Below, piece after piece: positions 51,586 to 59,706 of a DNA stretch of 64,000 bases. This stretch comes from Paludibaculum fermentans (lineage in GTDB: Bacteria > Acidobacteriota > Terriglobia > Bryobacterales > Bryobacteraceae), in assembly GCF_015277775.1 (NCBI RefSeq), contig NZ_CP063849.1, positions 1,054,001-1,118,000 of the forward strand, written 5' to 3'. How positions within the stretch are numbered: position 1 is the stretch's first letter; every line of letters begins with the position of its first letter. The notes under the pieces were generated by a model. The model worked only from the letters and a program-made list of their open reading frames with translations. It made no database searches and was not told the origin of the DNA. The translations under genes and the position numbers were made by a program.

Positions 51586-52824
51586 TCACCCCCACCACGG
51601 CTCACCCTCCACCAGATTCGCCTTCAGATACTCCTGATTCAGATCCAGCCCGAGCCCAGCGCCCATCGGCACCTTTAACTTGCTCTGCCGCACCTCCGGC
51701 GGATTCGAGGCCGCCATCTACTCCACGTGCCTGGTTGGCCGGCCCAGCGCGCTTTCACTGCGGTAGAAGTTCTGGATCGACGCTCCGAAGTGTGCGTTGG
51801 CGATGGTCAGGATCAGCGAACCCACGTTGTGGAGCGCTACCGGTGTGCGCGTCAACGCCGCATAATCGGCGATCTTTTTCGTTCCGGTCAGGCCGCCTGC
51901 GAAGGCGAGATCTGGGTGCACGATGTCGGCGACCTGTGTGTCGAGGAACGGCTTGAAGCCGCGGACCAGTTCCAGCTTTTCACCCGTCAGGATGGGGACG
52001 CGTGTGGAGCGCTTCAACGCGGCCCAACCCTCGTGGAACGTGACGTTCAGCGGATCCTCCAGGAAGAGCGGATTCATTGACTCAACGGCCTTCGCCACAC
52101 CAATCGCGCTGGGCGTGTCCATCTCGTTGTGGCAGTGCACGGCAATGTCGATATCGTCGCCCACCGCTTCGCGGGTGTTCGTGTAGGCCGTGTGAACCTT
52201 GCGCAGGTCTTCGGGCATCAGCGTGTTGGCGTAGCGCGCCGCGGGCACGCCGAGCACCGGGTCGATGCCGTTCTTGAAGGCGTTGAAGCCCTCGGGCATG
52301 GCCTTGATGCGCGCCGCCCATTCGCGGCACGAGCCTTTGTCGAGCATGTTGAAGCCCAGGCCGTGCGAGTACATCGGGATGGCGTCTCGAAACGGTCCGC
52401 CCATCAGCACGCAGACCGGCTTGTTCAGGATCTTGCCGGCCAGGTCCCATAACGCCATGTCGATGCCGGAGATCACGCCGATCTGCGCCATGTAGGTGTG
52501 CATCAGCGAGGTCATCTGATGGAAGTGGACCTCGATCGCCAGCGGATCCTTGCCGATGAGGAGATCGCGCATGGTTTCGATGCGCGCCCGCGCCATGGGG
52601 CCCGAGGCTCCGGCTTCGCCATAGCCCACGAGGCCTGAGTCTGTCTCGATTTTGATGAGGCAGTTGTTGGCGATGTTTTTGATGGCCATCGCCTTGACGG
52701 CCGTGATCTTCACTTTACCGGCCTCGGGGGCGGCCAGCGCCTGGAAGCCTGGAAACACGGTGGCGGCCGGCAGCGCGGCCAGGGCGCGCAGCAACGTCCG
52801 GCGGCTGAGTTGGGCTGTGATCAT
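51586..52824 (-). pseudogene. Enolase-superfamily enzyme interrupted by an in-frame TAG
   Basis: From an ATG at 52824 (GGAGAGA upstream) the frame encodes a Tat-like signal (SRRTLLRALAALPAATVF) and an enolase-superfamily dehydratase: VISGIDMALWDLAGK, FLEDPLNVTF, ILTGEKLEL, DIVHPDLAFAGGLTGTKKI and VALHNVGSLILTIANAHFG. A TAG stop at 51718-51720 ends it after RPTRHVE, but the same frame continues for 43 codons (GLGLDLNQEYLKANL, VEGEPWWG) to a TGA at 51586. That tail matches the usual C-terminus of this subgroup. The stop is therefore probably a nonsense mutation, a read-through site or a sequencing error; the truncated product could still fold. Confidence 0.75.
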
Positions 52825-52906
52825 GCGGGTCTCTCCGGGATCGAGAGTATCGCATCCGATGGCCCGTTGCACCGCTCCGCCCGCCGCGCCCGCTATCCTG
52901 GAACGA

Positions 52907-54199
52907 GTGAGTGGATTCGTCGACATTCTCAGAACCAACCGCAATTACCGCAATTGCTGGCTGGGTCAGATCGTCAGCGAGATCGGCGACCATTTCAACT
53001 CCATCGCCGTTCTCAGCCTGGCGCTGCACCTGACGGGCAGCGGAGCCACCGTGGGCGCGGTGATGATTGCCCGCGTGCTGCCGTCGATCCTCGCCGGACC
53101 CATTGCCGGCCTGGTGCTGGACCGCATGGACCGGCGCAAGATCATGGTCGCCTCGGACCTGCTGCGCTGCGTGGTCGCCCTGCTGCACATCCTGCTGCTG
53201 ACTTACCGGGAAACCTGGCTGCTCTACGTGTTGAGCGGCCTGCTGATGTTCGCGTCGCCCTTCTTCAACAGCGGACGCTCGGCGATTCTGCCGCGTATTG
53301 CCAGCCGTGAGGAATTGCACAGTGCGAACGCGCTGACGCAGACTACGTCGTGGCTGACGCTCTCCATCGGCACCATGCTCGGCGGCATCTCCACCGGGGC
53401 TCTGGGCTATCGCTGGGCCTTCGTGGCCAATGCGCTGAGCTTCCTGTGCAGCGCCATCGCGATCTGGAGCCTGAAGTCTCCGGAGGGCCATTTCCGGCCT
53501 TTGCGCGACGTGAGCGCGGCGAAGCGGCAGTCAAACTACCAGGAGTTCCGCGAAGGCCTGCGATACATGTCCACGCGGCCCCTGATCCTGGGCATCGCGC
53601 TGTTGGGCGTAGGTTGGGCGACCGGCGGCGGCGCGGCGCAGGTGCTGTTTACGCTGTTCGGCGAGGTGGTCTTCAAAGCGGGTCCCAAGGGCATCGGGCT
53701 CATCTGGAGCTTTGCCGGTATCGGGCTGGTGGCGGGCGGCATGCTGGGGCATCGCCTGGGACCGAAGTACACGTTCGAGCGCTACAAACATGCCGTGACG
53801 ATCGCGTTTTTTCTGCACGGCCTGTGCTACGTGATCTTCAGCGTGATGCCCGAGATCTGGGGCGCCATGATCTTCATCGCGTTCTCGCGGGTGGCGATGG
53901 GTTTCAACTCGGTGCTGAACCGCACGATCCTGCTGCTGCACATTCCGGACGGGCTGCGCGGGCGGGTGTTCACGACGGTGGAGACGATGGCCAATGCGGT
54001 GATGATGTTGTCGATGGGCGCGGCGGGTGTTGCGTCGACCCACTTCTCGCCGCGCGAGATCGGCGTGGTGGCGGGCGGCCTGAGTGCGTCGACGGCGCTG
54101 TTCTGGGCCTGGGCTAACGCCGCGGGCAAGCTGACCGAACCCGAGCAGGACTGGCAGGAACCGAAGCGCGAGTTCAGCGAACCTGTGACGCCAGCGTAA
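52907..54199 (+). CDS. MFS transporter, exporter type (EntS/MFS_3-like)
   Basis: This protein of about 430 residues has twelve predicted membrane segments and the N-terminal FVDILRTNRNYRNCWLGQIVSEIGDHF common to exporters of the enterobactin-exporter-like group, then VLDRMDRRKIMVASDLLR (motif A-like). Such transporters export siderophores, drugs or other small molecules. The start could be the GTG at 52907 or the ATG at 52859; the GTG leaves more room for divergent promoters. Its end overlaps by 26 nt with the convergent glycosyltransferase-thioesterase gene, so it may export that cluster's product. Confidence 0.8.
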   Translation: MSGFVDILRTNRNYRNCWLGQIVSEIGDHFNSIAVLSLALHLTGSGATVGAVMIARVLPSILAGPIAGLVLDRMDRRKIMVASDLLRCVVALLHILLLTYRETWLLYVLSGLLMFASPFFNSGRSAILPRIASREELHSANALTQTTSWLTLSIGTMLGGISTGALGYRWAFVANALSFLCSAIAIWSLKSPEGHFRPLRDVSAAKRQSNYQEFREGLRYMSTRPLILGIALLGVGWATGGGAAQVLFTLFGEVVFKAGPKGIGLIWSFAGIGLVAGGMLGHRLGPKYTFERYKHAVTIAFFLHGLCYVIFSVMPEIWGAMIFIAFSRVAMGFNSVLNRTILLLHIPDGLRGRVFTTVETMANAVMMLSMGAAGVASTHFSPREIGVVAGGLSASTALFWAWANAAGKLTEPEQDWQEPKREFSEPVTPA

Positions 54200-56210
54200 G
54201 ATCCGCCTTCAACGTGGAGAGCAGCGCCGCCTGGGCGGCTTCCAGGAAGAAGTGTCCGCCTTTGAATTCGGAGTGGCGGAAGGTCTGTGTTGTTTGGAGG
54301 CCCCAGGCGGCCAGGTGCTCCGCCGTGACGTTGGGGTCGGCTTCCCCGCCGTAGGCGAAGAGCGGCAGGTCGAGCGGGCCCTGGGCTTCGTAGGCGTAGT
54401 GGCGGTAGAGGCGCGCGTCCGAGAGCAGCGCGGGTAGCGCCAGTTTCAGCAGTTCGGGATTGTTCAGGACGCTGGGCGGGAAGCCTTCCAGGCGGCGCAG
54501 TTCTTCGATGAAGTCGCGCATCGAGGGCTCCGGCGGAGGGACGTGGTTCAGGCGGTACTGCGGCGCTCTGGCTCCGGAGACGTGCAGGGACACGGGTAGG
54601 GGCAAGCCCTCACGGCGGAGTGCGCGGGTCAGTTCAAAGCTGATGCCGGCGCCCATGCTGTGACCGAAGAACGAGAACGGGGCGTCGAGAAATGGACGGA
54701 CCTCCTTGAGGAGCGCTTCGACCAGGGGGCCCATGCGTTCGAAGGGTGGCTCCGCCGCGCGCGTTTCACGGCCCGGCAGGCGGACCGGCACGACGCAGGC
54801 GAGTGCGCTGAGTTTGTCGCGCCAGGCGCGGTAGGGCAGGGCTCCGCCGCCGGCCCAGGGGAAGCAGAACAGCTTCATGCGGCCGGCGGGGACTTCCTCA
54901 ATGCCCGGCAGCCACGGATTGCTGTCAGGCTTGGCGGCCGTGTTGTGCTGCCGCAGGCGCAGGGCCAGCAGTTTCTTCTTTTCTTCGCTCAGCGCGGGCC
55001 GCAGGGTGGGGGCCGGGGGCTGCTTTTTGGGCTTACGCAGCAGGCTTTCCAGCACACCTTCGAACGGCAGCACATTGAGATTCGCGGCGTACTCCAGCGC
55101 TGCTTTGCGGGAGGCGGCGGCGAGTTCTTCCCAGTGGGGCTGGTCGGTGGTCAGGCGCTCCATCACCTTATACCAGGGCGCTACGTCCTGCGGCGGGACC
55201 TCGGCCACCGGCACCATGCTGGCGTCGACGGAAGGCTTGTACTTCACGATGGGGTTGACGCGGATGAGGTACGGGACACCGAGTTTGGCTTCGTGGAGGC
55301 CGCCGACGTCGCTGGCGACCACGGGGATGCCGCGCGACATGGCTTCCAGGACGATTCGGGAGCGGGCCTCGGCCCAGACCGACGGCACCAGCATCACCTT
55401 GGTCTGCCGCAGCAGGCCGTCGATGTTGTCCATCTGGTTGAGCAGGGTAATGTTGGGCCGCTGACGCATGGCCGCGAGTTCGTCGATCTGCGTGCCCCAG
55501 GTGGGGATGGCGGCGAACTGGACGTGCGGCATGCGATCAGCCAGTTCCACGAAGATGGAGATGCCCTTCACCGCGCAGGGGTTCACCATGGCGACATAGG
55601 GGTTCTCGAACCGGCCCAGCAGGGGGAAGTCGCGGGTGTCCTCCAGCAGGGAGATGGGCACGTGGATGGCGTCGATGCCGCTCCATTCCCTGACATAGCC
55701 GGCCACGTAGTGGCTGACGCCCACGGTGGCGTCGGCGCGTTTCAGTACTTCGGTCTTGGAAGCCGAGACCATGGAGCTGTCGGGTCCGAAGGGGACGGCG
55801 ATGGTGGCGCGCACCAGGTAGACGACGCGGGCGTTGGGCGCCTTCACGGCAATGTCGAACAGTAACTGGCCGGGGTCGTCGGTGGAGGTGATGATGATGT
55901 CGGGCTGGAACTCGTCGATCTGCGCCTGGAAGAAGCCGCGCAGGTGTGGGCTCAATGACAGGACGCGGACCACCACGCCGCCCAGTTCATAGCGGATCCC
56001 GGTGCCGTCCGAGCCGTCCGGGTCCACTCCACGGGACCGGAGCGCCTCGAGCATGGCGTCGTGGCCTTCCTGGCCAAATTGCTCAACGCGGGTGGCTACG
56101 CGGACCGAATGGCCGCGTTCCACCAGCGCCTCCATCAACAACCGGTTCGATTTGTCGCCGCCGCCGAGGGAAGGGAAGTAAGTGGAGTTGTGAGCCAGCA
56201 GAACCTTCAC
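54174..56210 (-). CDS. GT4 glycosyltransferase fused to type II thioesterase
   Basis: This 678-residue protein is a fusion. Residues 1-400 form a GT4-type glycosyltransferase (KVLLAHNSTYFPSLGGGDKSN, the NPCAVKGISIF core and an EX7E motif in WAEARSRIVLEAM). A linker (LSEEKKKLLALRLRQ, about 405-420) precedes a type II thioesterase: MKLFCFPWAGGG at 445, the nucleophile Ser518 in FFGHSMGAG, Asp625 in GGEADPNV and His653 in KGGHFF. Type II thioesterases release or proofread acyl groups on carrier proteins. The ATG overlaps the end of the second glycosyltransferase gene by 4 nt. I know of no standard protein with this combination. Confidence 0.85.
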   Translation of the reverse strand: MKVLLAHNSTYFPSLGGGDKSNRLLMEALVERGHSVRVATRVEQFGQEGHDAMLEALRSRGVDPDGSDGTGIRYELGGVVVRVLSLSPHLRGFFQAQIDEFQPDIIITSTDDPGQLLFDIAVKAPNARVVYLVRATIAVPFGPDSSMVSASKTEVLKRADATVGVSHYVAGYVREWSGIDAIHVPISLLEDTRDFPLLGRFENPYVAMVNPCAVKGISIFVELADRMPHVQFAAIPTWGTQIDELAAMRQRPNITLLNQMDNIDGLLRQTKVMLVPSVWAEARSRIVLEAMSRGIPVVASDVGGLHEAKLGVPYLIRVNPIVKYKPSVDASMVPVAEVPPQDVAPWYKVMERLTTDQPHWEELAAASRKAALEYAANLNVLPFEGVLESLLRKPKKQPPAPTLRPALSEEKKKLLALRLRQHNTAAKPDSNPWLPGIEEVPAGRMKLFCFPWAGGGALPYRAWRDKLSALACVVPVRLPGRETRAAEPPFERMGPLVEALLKEVRPFLDAPFSFFGHSMGAGISFELTRALRREGLPLPVSLHVSGARAPQYRLNHVPPPEPSMRDFIEELRRLEGFPPSVLNNPELLKLALPALLSDARLYRHYAYEAQGPLDLPLFAYGGEADPNVTAEHLAAWGLQTTQTFRHSEFKGGHFFLEAAQAALLSTLKADLTLASQVR

Positions 56211-57433
56211 GACTGCTCCTTCTTCTGCTTGAGCCGCGCGAGTAGCAGGGCTCGTTTGGCTGGATCCAACGCCTTCAACTTCTCCTCCGTCGATGGGACT
56301 CGTTTGTGTTCGCCGATGGGTTGCTGCGCGGGTGGCAGGCTGCGCAGGTGCCGCTCAAAGTCGGCCACGTCCAGAGTGGAGACGAAACGCAGGGCGGCGT
56401 CGCGGGATTGCCGGGCTTCGCGCCAGTAGGCGGACTGGTTCGTCAGCAGCGTGTGCAGCGCGGCGGCCCAGGGTTCCAGGTCCTGCGGCGGGACGATCGC
56501 CTTGGGCATCAGGGTGTCGTCGAACGTGCGTTCGTAGCGCTCCACCGGACGGACGGGCACGACATAGCCGGTGCCGGCCTTGGCTTCCATCAGGCCGCCG
56601 GAGTTGCTGGCGATCACGGGCAGGCCGCGCAGCATGGCTTCCATGGCGATGAGGCCGAAGCCTTCGTACCAGACGGAAGGCATCAGCAGCAGGCGGGCCT
56701 GTTCCAGCACCTCCTCGATGTCCGGAACATTCTTGAGCAGGCGTGTATTGGGCAGGCGTTCGAGGGCGGCGCGGTCGGCGGCGGTGGTGCCCCAGCCGTT
56801 CAGGGCTGCGAATTCGATATCGGGATAGCGGGTAGCGAGGTCGAGGAAGATGCTGACGCCCTTCACCGCGCAGGGGTTGATCATCAGCACGAAGCCGGAG
56901 CCGAAGCGTCCGAACTGCCGGTAGGGCGGCTTCCCGTAGAGCGGCGGGTGGATGACCACTGCGTCGCGGCCCAGGTGTTCCTTGATGTAGCCCGCCATGT
57001 GGTGGCCGATGGCGACCACGCTGGCGGCGTTGCGGGCCATCCCGGTGCCCGCCGTGTCGCGGTTCCAGCTCTCGGGTCCAAATGGGTAGAACTGGGGCGT
57101 GTGGGCCAGGTAGACGATGCGGCCCGGGGCGACTGTTCCGGCCTCGCGCAGCAGCACGTGGCTGACGTCTTCACTGGATACCAGGACCCAATCCGGCTGG
57201 AAGGCCTGGATGTGGGTGGCCAGGACAGAGACCCGGAAGGAGAGATCCTTCACTCCGTGGACTGTGATGCCGTCGACCACGGTGGTGCGATCGGCCGCGC
57301 CATCCACCGTCGGGGAGACCACCACGCACTCATGGCCCTTGGACGCGAGGTGCCGCAGCCAGGCCAGGTTCGAGCGCGTCGACCCGCCGCGCGGTGGATC
57401 GTACGACGCGTTCGAGGTCAACAGAATCCGCAT
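56207..57433 (-). CDS. GT4-family glycosyltransferase
   Basis: This 408-residue protein resembles the N-terminal part of the adjacent fusion and is probably its paralogue. It has RILLTSNASYDPPRGGSTRS, a nucleotide-sugar-binding C-lobe with MINPCAVKGVSIFLDLATRY, and the EX7E motif in WYEGFGLIAMEAM. GT4 enzymes transfer sugars with retention. The C-terminal tail (TEEKLKALDPAKRALLLARL) resembles the linker-like motif of NRPS proteins. It begins where the FkbH-carrier gene ends (single-base overlap) and overlaps the next gene by 4 nt. Confidence 0.87.
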   Translation of the reverse strand: MRILLTSNASYDPPRGGSTRSNLAWLRHLASKGHECVVVSPTVDGAADRTTVVDGITVHGVKDLSFRVSVLATHIQAFQPDWVLVSSEDVSHVLLREAGTVAPGRIVYLAHTPQFYPFGPESWNRDTAGTGMARNAASVVAIGHHMAGYIKEHLGRDAVVIHPPLYGKPPYRQFGRFGSGFVLMINPCAVKGVSIFLDLATRYPDIEFAALNGWGTTAADRAALERLPNTRLLKNVPDIEEVLEQARLLLMPSVWYEGFGLIAMEAMLRGLPVIASNSGGLMEAKAGTGYVVPVRPVERYERTFDDTLMPKAIVPPQDLEPWAAALHTLLTNQSAYWREARQSRDAALRFVSTLDVADFERHLRSLPPAQQPIGEHKRVPSTEEKLKALDPAKRALLLARLKQKKEQS

Positions 57434-59706
57434 TAGTACTGCCCGTTCTCGCCTGCCTGCTCTTCCTGTTGCAGCAGGGCCTGCACTTCCTCGTCCGACA
57501 GTCCCTCGATCTCAGCCAGCAGGGCGTGGTACTCGTCGGCGTCCATGGCGCCCAGTTGATGGGCTTCGATGGTGCGCGCCAACTCGCCCAGCGTCAGCGT
57601 GCCCGAGTAGACATCGTCTACTGACAGCTCGACTCCGAACTCTTCCTTCACCCGCATCAGCAGGAGCACGGCCAGCAGGGAGTGTCCGCCGAGGTCGAAG
57701 AAGTTGCTGTGAACCGACGTAGCCGGGCGTTCGAGCAGTTCCGTCCAGATGGCGGCGAGACGGCGCTCGACATCACTGGCCGGGGCATCAGGCGCGGTGG
57801 AATGCGCCAGCGCGGCCTGTGCCTGGCGGCGCACTTCGTTCACGACCTGGGCCGGAGTGCGCAGATCGTGGGCGATGCGCGCGAATTCGACAAAGCGCCG
57901 GACCGCCGGGGCCTTGGCTTTGGACTTGGGCTTCGGGGCCGCCGCATCCGCGTCCAGGCGGCTCGGTTTCCAGCGCAACGCCTGCAACTCCGTGGCGGGG
58001 AAGCGATAAAGGATCTCGTCGCCCGCGGTTTCCACTGTGCCGAAGCCGACACTGTCCAGAAACTGGCGCGCCGGCATGTTCTTGGACGTGGGACGGAAGG
58101 CGACGCTCACTGAGTAGATGCCGTTGTCGAGGGCCTCTTCGGCCAGCGCGGAGAGCATGCGATGCTCGACACCGCGGCCCAGCGCGCGGCAGCTCAACAG
58201 GAACGTGTCGACGCGCATTTCGGCCTCGCGCCGTTCCACGATGAGGACGCCCACCAGGCCGTATTCGCCGAAGCGGTCGGACACTTCGCCGGTGAAGCAG
58301 CGGTAGCGGCCATCGGCCAGCAGCGCCTGGATCTCCTGCTCGTTGCGGCGGATAGTGGTGCAGTTGAACTGATTGGTGCGCTGGGTGAGCTGCGCGACGC
58401 GGCCCAGCCGTTCGGGGGCCAGAGCCTGGAAATCCACGCGCAGGTTGAGTCCGGCGATGAACTCCTCCAGGCTGGTGGCGCGTTTGATCTCGCGGCCGAA
58501 CTCCAGGGTCTGGGCGTAAAGCGTGCTGCGCTGGCGGTCTTCCTCGGTGATCACCGGGTGGTCGAAGGCCCAGATGTGATGCAGGAACTCCGGCAGCTCC
58601 TCAATGTCTTCGGGCAGGACGAGCGGCAGCGCCTCGGGCGCGCCGTCGGCGACTTCTGCGCATTCCTTGGGATTGTCGTCGAGGAAGATGAACGTATCCA
58701 GGCCTACACTCAGCTCCTCGGCCAGAGAGGCCAGGTTGCCCGCTTTCGACTCCCAGTTCAGGCGCCAGGCCGTGAAGTGACGCAGTTGGAGGGGGAATTC
58801 GGGGTGGGCGGCGAAGGTGTCGAAGACGTCCTGCTCGTTGTTCTTGCTGGCCATCACCAGCAGCATGCCGGCCTCGCGCTGCTCCAGCAGGAACTGGTGC
58901 AGCATCCTGCGCGGACCGTCCAGGGTGACCCCAGCCGGGCCGTCTTCGCCGCAGATGCCGCGCCACAGCGTGTTGTCGCAATCCACCGCGATCACTTTGT
59001 AGGGCGGCATGAACATGGCCTGCGCACGGCGCACCAGGGCGGTGCCCAGGGCGGCAAAGTACTGCTCCGTATAAGGAATGCGGCCCAGGCGCTGGCCTTC
59101 GGCGTCGTGGCGGTTCTCCACCGGGTAAGTCCGGTCGATCTCCGTATAGTCGATGCACTGGATGCCTGGCGTTTCGCCGAGTGTATGGGCGATGACGCGG
59201 CGGGCGCGCTCCAGGCTGGCGGCGCAGGCCGGGTCGGCCGCAAACTCCGGCGAGGGCGGGCACAGGCAGAAAAGGATCGGCGCAGGCAGGTGGGCCGGGG
59301 CGGACCGCAGAGCTCCGGTCAACTCCTGGACGATCTCTTCCAGGCGTTGCAGGGTTTCGGTGCCGTAGCTCTCGAAATGGCCCAGATCTTCATAGCGGCA
59401 TAACACCAGGTTCACGCCGTGGTCGTTCTGTGCGAACTCGGATGTAGGATCAAGCACCGTCTGCAGGATCTGGTCGTAGGGCGCGAAGCGCAGATCCAAT
59501 TCGCGATTCAGGACCCGGCCCCAGAATGCCAGCACGGGCCGGATGGGTTCGGCCGTAAAGTTGGCGCTGACAGCTGCGCGAAAGGCCGGGTGATGCGGCT
59601 GGTGACTGTTGTTGGATTCGTTCACTGGTTTGTTATTCGCTCGCGGTAAGACGCCGCGTTCAAGGTCCGGTGGGCAGAATTTCGAGGCTCTGGTTCCCAT
59701 AGCCAT
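57433..59706 (-). CDS. FkbH-like HAD-IIIC protein with C-terminal carrier domain
   Basis: This 757-residue protein has an N-terminal FkbH-type region (about 45-235), a HAD phosphatase core with DCDNTLWRGICGEDG (242-255), SKNNEQDVFD (288-296) and FLDDNPKECA (341-350), and a GNAT-like part (NQFNCTTIRRNEQEI, about 445-570). FkbH proteins take a glyceryl unit from 1,3-bisphosphoglycerate and load it on a carrier protein. A Lys/Pro-rich linker leads to a phosphopantetheine carrier domain (645-715) with Ser676 in FFDLGGHSL. The tail LSDEEVQALL resembles ends of NRPS subunits. The start is ATG at 59706; a GTG at VNESNN is possible. Confidence 0.9.
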   Translation of the reverse strand: MAMGTRASKFCPPDLERGVLPRANNKPVNESNNSHQPHHPAFRAAVSANFTAEPIRPVLAFWGRVLNRELDLRFAPYDQILQTVLDPTSEFAQNDHGVNLVLCRYEDLGHFESYGTETLQRLEEIVQELTGALRSAPAHLPAPILFCLCPPSPEFAADPACAASLERARRVIAHTLGETPGIQCIDYTEIDRTYPVENRHDAEGQRLGRIPYTEQYFAALGTALVRRAQAMFMPPYKVIAVDCDNTLWRGICGEDGPAGVTLDGPRRMLHQFLLEQREAGMLLVMASKNNEQDVFDTFAAHPEFPLQLRHFTAWRLNWESKAGNLASLAEELSVGLDTFIFLDDNPKECAEVADGAPEALPLVLPEDIEELPEFLHHIWAFDHPVITEEDRQRSTLYAQTLEFGREIKRATSLEEFIAGLNLRVDFQALAPERLGRVAQLTQRTNQFNCTTIRRNEQEIQALLADGRYRCFTGEVSDRFGEYGLVGVLIVERREAEMRVDTFLLSCRALGRGVEHRMLSALAEEALDNGIYSVSVAFRPTSKNMPARQFLDSVGFGTVETAGDEILYRFPATELQALRWKPSRLDADAAAPKPKSKAKAPAVRRFVEFARIAHDLRTPAQVVNEVRRQAQAALAHSTAPDAPASDVERRLAAIWTELLERPATSVHSNFFDLGGHSLLAVLLLMRVKEEFGVELSVDDVYSGTLTLGELARTIEAHQLGAMDADEYHALLAEIEGLSDEEVQALLQQEEQAGENGQY

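Follow-up and report, generated by a model that had tools for sequence, protein, structure and literature searches.

We analysed a stretch of 64,000 nucleotides of the Paludibaculum fermentans genome (contig NZ_CP063849.1, positions 1,054,001 to 1,118,000 of the forward strand), referred to here as the window. On its minus strand, three genes without intergenic gaps form an operon (Table 1). The first encodes an FkbH-like loading protein with its own peptidyl carrier domain (FkbH-PCP), the second a glycosyltransferase (GT) of family GT4 (GT1), and the third another GT4 enzyme fused to a thioesterase (GT2-TE). The FkbH-PCP and GT1 genes meet in TAATG and overlap by 1 base; the GT1 and GT2-TE genes overlap by 4 bases, as calculated from their coordinates. 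This agrees with the original prediction, which was made from the DNA letters alone and described three tightly overlapping genes. The anatomy of the trio is real and conserved. It combines known kinds of components in a way that we did not find described in the parts of the open PMC literature consulted, which is consistent with the earlier view of the set as undescribed.

FkbH-PCP scored 291.4 bits against the FkbH model TIGR01686, whose cut-off is 146.65. Its carrier domain matched PP-binding (PF00550) with 56.4 bits, and Ser676 lies in the motif LGGHSLL. The conserved serine in GGHS and 2 phosphopantetheinyl transferase (PPTase) matches in the same genome mark Ser676 as a predicted phosphopantetheine site. 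The HAD aspartates of the FkbH domain, K321 and Cys506 were as invariant as Ser676; Cys506 is expected to act in glyceryl transfer. In a fold search, the AlphaFold model of FkbH-PCP matched the HAD part of BF1531-type proteins and GNAT folds.

Both GTs matched GT4 Pfam families above cut-off and hold the E-x7-E motif. Thus the predicted FkbH protein with its own carrier and the two predicted GT4 enzymes were all found. In GT1, E257 was invariant and E265 was kept in at least 90% of the 35 aligned proteins. All five residues listed for GT2-TE in Table 1 were invariant in 40 aligned proteins. The rows of these alignments were selected as full frames and are not random samples; within these aligned subsets, the proteins are 43–95% identical to those of the window. 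A search of solved structures with GT1 returned general GT4 relatives only. The AlphaFold model of GT2-TE matched RifR-type thioesterases and GT-B enzymes such as BshA. The thioesterase domain matched the RifR structure 3fla with E values of 4e-61 by profile and 5e-20 by fold, and it keeps the Ser-Asp-His residues. The domain had been called a type II thioesterase. This is right for its sequence and fold, and "type II" here names its kin and not its role; the window's enzyme is fused to a GT and does not stand alone.

Table 1. Features of the operon and its surroundings. Positions are those of the window unless a locus (L) is named; aa, amino acids; pLDDT, AlphaFold's per-residue confidence score, given as the mean.
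Feature	Position	Strand	Evidence
FkbH-like loading protein with C-terminal peptidyl carrier domain (FkbH-PCP), 757 aa	57433..59706	-	TIGR01686 291 bits, PF00550 56 bits; model pLDDT 85.6
FkbH domain, aa 236-556	58039..59001	-	42-row alignment; D242, D244, K321, D343, D344 and Cys506 invariant
Carrier domain, aa 649-713; predicted phosphopantetheine Ser676 at 57679-57681	57568..57762	-	PF00550; Ser676 invariant in 42 rows
Acidic tail at the C-terminus of FkbH-PCP (..LLAEIEGLSDEEVQALLQQEE), proposed docking element on the donor side	57448..57543	-	Motif counts in homologues; similar NRPS tails in genome G011
GT4 glycosyltransferase 1 (GT1), 408 aa, E257-x7-E265	56207..57433	-	PF13692, PF00534, PF13439; 35-row alignment
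Basic segment at the C-terminus of GT1 (LDPAKRALLLARLKQKK), putative helix and proposed docking element on the acceptor side	56219..56269	-	Motif counts in homologues
GT4 glycosyltransferase 2 fused to thioesterase (GT2-TE), 678 aa; E281-x7-E289, Ser518, Asp625, His653	54174..56210	-	Pfam; alignments; model pLDDT 87.1
Basic helix in the GT2-TE linker (LSEEKKKLLALRLRQH)	54945..54992	-	Motif counts in homologues; helix 409-424 in the model, partly low confidence
Thioesterase domain, aa 446-670; RifR is the nearest solved relative	54201..54875	-	PF00975 132 bits; 3fla by profile and fold
Predicted MFS exporter of EntS/MFS_3 kind, convergent with the operon	52652..54199	+	PF07690 and PF05977 above cut-off; TIGR00900 and EntS models below theirs
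D-2-hydroxyacid dehydrogenase genes at other loci	L103:7035-7988, L129:8518-9534, L134:12429-13484, and seven more loci		Family checked for L103, L129 and L134

To follow the trio in other genomes, we scanned one genome per species (84,980 species) with a GT2-TE profile, by way of two short peptide patterns. The best 80 of 101 relatives were read, with flanks of up to 10 kb (1.34 Mb in all); the weaker 21 went unseen. More than 3.6 kb lies upstream of GT2-TE in 65 of the 80 loci, and both GT1 and FkbH are present in 61 of these 65, the exceptions being L105, L131, L141 and L159. The trio is not a chance arrangement, because the same gene order, which had been proposed as something to look for, recurs in this way. 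GT1 was seen at 70 loci, and at 19 of them it shares a single open frame with GT2-TE. The GT2-TE frame runs to at least 600 aa without an inner stop in 66 of the 80 loci. In 7 loci the match stops before residue 600; six of these are cut contigs or broken frames, and L159 is a true end. GT2 relatives without a thioesterase, with an FkbM-family methyltransferase gene next, were seen at L159:10001-12194 and L070:4121-6254.

The trio is conserved in the bacterium's own family, Bryobacteraceae. In the 37 family genomes covered for both proteins, with thresholds of E 1e-100 for GT2-TE and E 1e-80 for FkbH-PCP, the two always went together: 25 genomes have both and 12 have neither. The FkbH counted for G022, which is among the 25, lies on a different contig from the GT pair, whose own contig stops a short way upstream of GT1; among the 12, G024 has a completeness of 62% and contains a 191 aa TE-like piece. 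Counted by eye, GT2-TE at E 1e-100 or better was found in 38 of 61 family genomes, which rules out an oddity of one species, and in 0 of 40 relatives outside the family. In an even draw of 396 genomes from the phylum (3 of them from the family), with three candidates scored per genome, GT-part matches at E 1e-60 outside the family were found in 2 only (G149 and G281); other outside matches were to thioesterase domains. Of the 80 locus titles, 78 are acidobacterial; the other two (L087 and L150) name "Arcobacter" and a "Phycisphaerales" bin. Both hold Bryobacteraceae-like trio genes, and the titles are probably naming or binning errors. Around a hit in Niveispirillum (L178), FkbH was not matched in the 25 kb that were read.

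The original prediction saw no elongation enzyme of a polyketide synthase (PKS) or nonribosomal peptide synthetase (NRPS) in the window, and this extends to the whole genome. In its 9.53 Mb (two contigs), the condensation (C) domain PF00668 gave 0 matches. Ketosynthase (PF00109) gave 4 matches in frames of 379–429 aa, two of them full and each in a 429 aa frame. Such frames fit fatty acid synthesis and not a modular PKS. Thus nothing was seen that could elongate a loaded unit, since the genome showed no C domain and ketosynthases in short frames only. C domains were matched at 4 of the 80 loci, always as the leading part of FkbH. Of the 25 genomes with the trio, 14 show no C domain (several are incomplete) and 11 have C domains somewhere. 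It had been argued that homologues always lying inside large NRPS/PKS clusters would speak against the prediction; within the family they do not lie there, whereas relatives of the parts outside the family do. The window's genome also has 8 carrier-domain matches and 11 weak matches to a query of fatty acyl-AMP ligase (FAAL) and acyl carrier protein (ACP), none above 57 bits. Elsewhere in this genome, a protein with adenylation (A) and PCP domains lies near a P450-like frame and a divergent PPTase gene (L071:8681-12303), and an 848 aa NRPS-like protein has AMP-binding, PP-binding and Thioesterase domains and no condensation domain (L072:7261-9807).

In a small group of relatives the FkbH protein is longer. 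At L126, L136 and L145 it has 1827–1879 aa and the order AMP-binding, PP-binding, Condensation, FkbH, PP-binding. The AMP-binding front, with its DIP2-like C-terminal part, is presumably a FAAL. L156 has Condensation-FkbH-PP-binding, and its contig ends before the rest. The four group together in the FkbH tree and in the GT1 half of the GT tree. In the GT2 half, L126 stands apart from L136 and L145, and L156 is absent. The outgroup branch was too long to tell gain from loss of this form. The window's FkbH-PCP consists of FkbH and PCP only; family profile scans found no FAAL-ACP-C front on it.

Each of the three proteins carries a charged segment (Table 1). A strict motif for the acidic tail of FkbH-PCP was found in 41 of 64 homologues (0.0% of shuffles) and a relaxed one in 56 of 64 (0.05% of shuffled tails). 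The basic helix motif was found in 41 of 49 separate GT1 proteins and in 64 of 78 GT2-TE linkers, compared with 1.4% and 1.0% of shuffles, respectively. Rows excluded before counting were 2 of 66 for FkbH, because of inner stops, 21 of 70 for GT1, whose frames were fused, long or open, and 2 of 80 for GT2, which were shorter than 500 aa. On the motif-bearing rows (56/64, 41/49 and 64/78), the median net charge was -8 for the tail and +4 for both helices. These segments are not effects of composition, which is all that the shuffle rates show.

Similar elements occur between NRPS proteins. In the NRPS/PKS of genome G011, an acidic tail followed by a basic leader was found at 2 of 3 neighbouring protein pairs in which the downstream protein has an N-terminal C domain; a stretch of about 0.9 kb separates the frames of one pair. 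An initial pattern for a helix preceding C domains proved too stringent (1 of 9), and the junctions were inspected visually instead. In G149, from another acidobacterial family, a GT of the same subfamily (36–38% identity) precedes C-A-PCP-C-A in a single frame (L166:12170-19999), with the basic segment LTPEQRALLLQRLRKK between GT and C. The adjoining piece of G149 (L169:2-3058) ends in A-PCP-TE. By eye, three GTs of the same subfamily from elsewhere lack the helix, and a Streptomyces FkbH-PCP lacks the tail. Known docking pairs between PCP and C domains include short charged C-terminal motifs that bind a beta-hairpin domain (PMC9113145). Unlike that acceptor, the GT elements of the trio are putative helices. 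By analogy, the FkbH tail may dock on the GT helices. We think that the sugars are added on the carrier because of the G149 fusion, the GT helices, the FkbH tail, the G011 pairs, and the lack of these elements in the GTs and FkbH-PCP from elsewhere.

We propose that the operon is a loading, glycosylation and release line without elongation, which makes a glycosylated glycerate for export; we give this an even chance of being right. Judging from its family, FkbH would take D-1,3-bisphosphoglycerate, in line with the expected FkbH substrate (PMC7489565), remove the phosphate and attach the glyceryl group, through a thioester bond, to the carrier domain that it contains. The basic helices of both GT4 enzymes would then serve as docking sites for the acidic tail of FkbH-PCP. 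Each GT4 would add one sugar, the acceptor being either the glycerate on the carrier or the sugar added before. The thioesterase fused to GT2 would free a mono- or diglycosyl glycerate, and the major facilitator superfamily (MFS) protein would export it. In the small group with the FAAL-ACP-C front, glycerate might first be esterified with a fatty acid, as in vioprolide, to give an acidic glycolipid. In favour of the proposed line stand the intact, conserved trio in a genome without C domain or long ketosynthase frame, the shared presence or absence of FkbH-PCP and GT2-TE, the GT1 and GT2-TE fusions, the PPTase, MFS and dehydrogenase genes beside some of the loci, the FAAL-ACP-C fronts, and the use of FkbH loading in NRPS pathways. 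We put forward more tentatively, at somewhat below an even chance, that the trio represents a separate thiotemplate class, spread over much of this major soil bacterial family. In it, GTs with a docking helix of the PCP-to-C kind would replace condensation domains and glycosylate a carrier-bound hydroxy acid, and the products would be secreted glycosyl glycerates, with acyl versions in one group. A small molecule and a surface glycan had both been left open as products. We favour the carrier-bound small molecule because of the exporter gene, the docking-type tails and the lack of polysaccharide genes among the recurrent neighbours; this weakens the surface alternative and does not refute it.

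Several observations weigh against the proposed line. The MFS gene is found at only 20 of the 80 loci and the PPTase gene at 18, with both at one. L105 and L131 have GT2-TE alone, L141 has the GT pair without a nearby FkbH, and at L159 GT2 has no thioesterase and is followed by the FkbM-type methyltransferase gene. In G022, a lone FkbH-PCP has the acidic tail (L172:7257-9305), with no GT match in the 16 kb read. The motif patterns were composed after the alignments had been seen, and the relaxed tail pattern after its misses had been seen; the counted homologues are related, so the shuffles overstate the signal. One of the three G011 protein pairs has no acidic tail, and the docking itself is argued by likeness of sequence. 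RifR-like thioesterases usually edit rather than release. Finally, FkbH-PCP-TE proteins exist without fused GTs, one of them among polysaccharide genes.

The neighbouring genes vary more than the trio. An MFS gene was scored at 45% identity or more to one of two queries, and it occurs in several placements and orientations. In the window it overlaps the 3' end of the GT2-TE gene by 26 bases. Its listed start is probably too early, since full-length relatives align from residue 62–92 onward; the true start is probably near 52850–52910, about 200–260 bases after 52652. As listed, the start also overlaps an enolase-superfamily gene on the minus strand (51718-52944). The PPTase gene lies downstream on the same strand, in 16 of the 67 loci with more than 1.5 kb downstream sequence; two examples were checked by Pfam. 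The only locus with both MFS and PPTase is L122. A D-2-hydroxyacid dehydrogenase gene lies just downstream in 10 of the 80 loci, 9 of them PPTase loci, and is absent from the window's locus. It scored below all equivalog cut-offs listed, and the 2-hydroxyacid dehydrogenase and glyoxylate reductase models scored best. This enzyme could serve glycerate supply; alternatively, its position may be synteny of one group. Gfo/Idh-type genes stand at varied positions in 18 loci (one example checked) and ThuA-like genes in 11. Frame clustering of the 80 loci gave several further recurrent genes, common to close relatives only. The Gfo/Idh-type and ThuA-type genes were taken for local synteny. Apart from the trio, MFS and PPTase, most of the recurrent neighbours reflect, in our reading, the synteny of a single group. 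No polysaccharide genes were seen among the genes recurring in at least 5 of the 80 loci, as judged by eye from the sequences of the clusters.

Relatives elsewhere bear on a different use of the same parts. Single FkbH-PCP-TE proteins occur in G081, from another acidobacterial family (L171:9057-11987), and on a plasmid of Aquisphaera giovannonii (L180:9947-12958); they are 42% identical over nearly their full length. The latter sits in a polysaccharide cluster with tyrosine autokinase, exosortase, WecB-type and other GT genes. They may represent a second type of glyceryl unit that works without elongation. Two Streptomyces plasmids carry FkbH-PCP, a single GT4 of the trio's subfamily and a thioesterase close to one another. 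The plasmid of Streptomyces sp. NBC_00441 (L177 and L179) also has ACP, a stand-alone C domain, MFS and sugar-nucleotide genes, and in the plasmid region read, PKS, DUF1702 and "enediyne biosynthesis" genes are annotated further off. This shows that FkbH-carrier units are reused in several settings, and for this reason a surface-glycan reading stays alive. In it, the thioesterase would pass the carrier-bound glyceryl group, glycosylated or not, to a cell-surface glycan made or lengthened by the GTs. A role in envelope glycans is common for GT4 enzymes, and the Aquisphaera protein and its acidobacterial counterpart would fit it. However, the recurrent neighbours include no polysaccharide genes that we could see, the basic GT helices fit a carrier partner, and the window's thioesterase belongs to another type, resembling RifR, and did not significantly match the thioesterases of the FkbH-PCP-TE proteins. 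We consider surface decoration unlikely.

A product kept in the cell is less likely still. Glucosylglycerate is a known osmolyte (PMC11009771). A glyceryl loader together with two GTs would have the right parts to build the skeleton of glucosylglycerate or a diglycosyl glycerate, with a carrier route replacing the usual route through a phospho-intermediate. The dehydrogenase gene at 10 loci would suit such a compatible solute. The MFS gene at 20 loci and the FAAL-C or C front at 4 point instead to a secreted or lipidic product, and carrier loading would be costly for a bulk solute. On balance, we find an osmolyte improbable.

It is very improbable that the glyceryl thioester is converted to a hydroxymalonyl-, methoxymalonyl- or lactyl-carrier unit before glycosylation. 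FkbH proteins of PKS pathways do supply glyceryl units that are converted to other units by two dehydrogenases (PMC7489565), and the dehydrogenase gene beside some trios, at loci other than the window's, could be seen in this light. However, it is one dehydrogenase per locus, in one group of relatives. Its best models are 2-hydroxyacid dehydrogenases including glyoxylate reductase, enzymes that act on free acids, and none of the ten Pfam-scanned window frames around the operon is of the needed kind.

Hardest to credit is FkbH-PCP as a starter for an NRPS or PKS encoded elsewhere in the genome, with the GTs and thioesterase tailoring the peptide in trans: the tail and helices are of the inter-protein kind seen in the G011 NRPS, 11 of the 25 trio genomes have C domains, and a Streptomyces plasmid has FkbH-PCP, GT4 and thioesterase in the region of an enediyne-type PKS set, but the other 14 genomes show no C domain and the window's genome has none beside its two full, 429 aa ketosynthase frames, so for this genome we set the idea aside as contradicted unless an NRPS is unassembled.

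Glycosylation of natural products is usually viewed as a late step on a finished molecule. If the proposed line is correct, glycosylation would be the main building step on a carrier, in a widely conserved set without elongation. It would predict an undiscovered class of metabolites from abundant, poorly cultured soil bacteria. The system has three proteins and would be small enough to rebuild in vitro. The docking element suggests a part for directing a GT to a chosen carrier.

The original prediction described FkbH proteins as feeding a glyceryl unit into PKS pathways. This holds, and FkbH loading also serves NRPS pathways (PMC8949500, PMC10099666). The starter modules of vioprolide and corramycin have the order FAAL-ACP-C-FkbH-T (PMC10099666), and the vioprolide FkbH domain is stated to activate D-3-phosphoglycerate (PMC10099666, PMC8949500). 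They share with the trio an FkbH followed by a carrier, and the full FAAL-ACP-C front is found in three of its relatives, with the C part in a fourth, contig-cut one. Those modules feed long NRPS/PKS lines, whereas the trio continues with two GTs and a thioesterase and the window's copy has no FAAL, ACP or C. The FkbH enzymes of tetronate and methoxymalonyl-ACP pathways belong to the same TIGR01686 family as the window's. Unlike them, the window's FkbH has its carrier fused in cis, with no FabH-like or PKS gene beside it in the ten neighbouring frames. The two dehydrogenases and the O-methyltransferase of a methoxymalonyl-ACP operon were not among these Pfam-scanned frames, the genome not having been searched for them.

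The type II thioesterases RifR, BorB and RedJ share sequence and fold with the window's thioesterase, which keeps their Ser/Asp/His. In contrast to them, it stands behind a GT4 in one protein and is apparently the sole release enzyme of its set. BshA, whose acceptor is L-malate, and MshA have the GT-B fold in common with the GTs of the trio, with target-side template modelling (TM) scores of 0.64–0.71 for BshA chains and 0.38–0.64 for MshA chains, at about 15% identity. We know of no carrier-protein partner for BshA or MshA. In the NRPS of G149 with its N-terminal GT4, the segment leads into C-A-PCP-C-A modules, whereas no C domain follows in the window; its GT is of the same subfamily as those of the trio and carries the same kind of basic segment.

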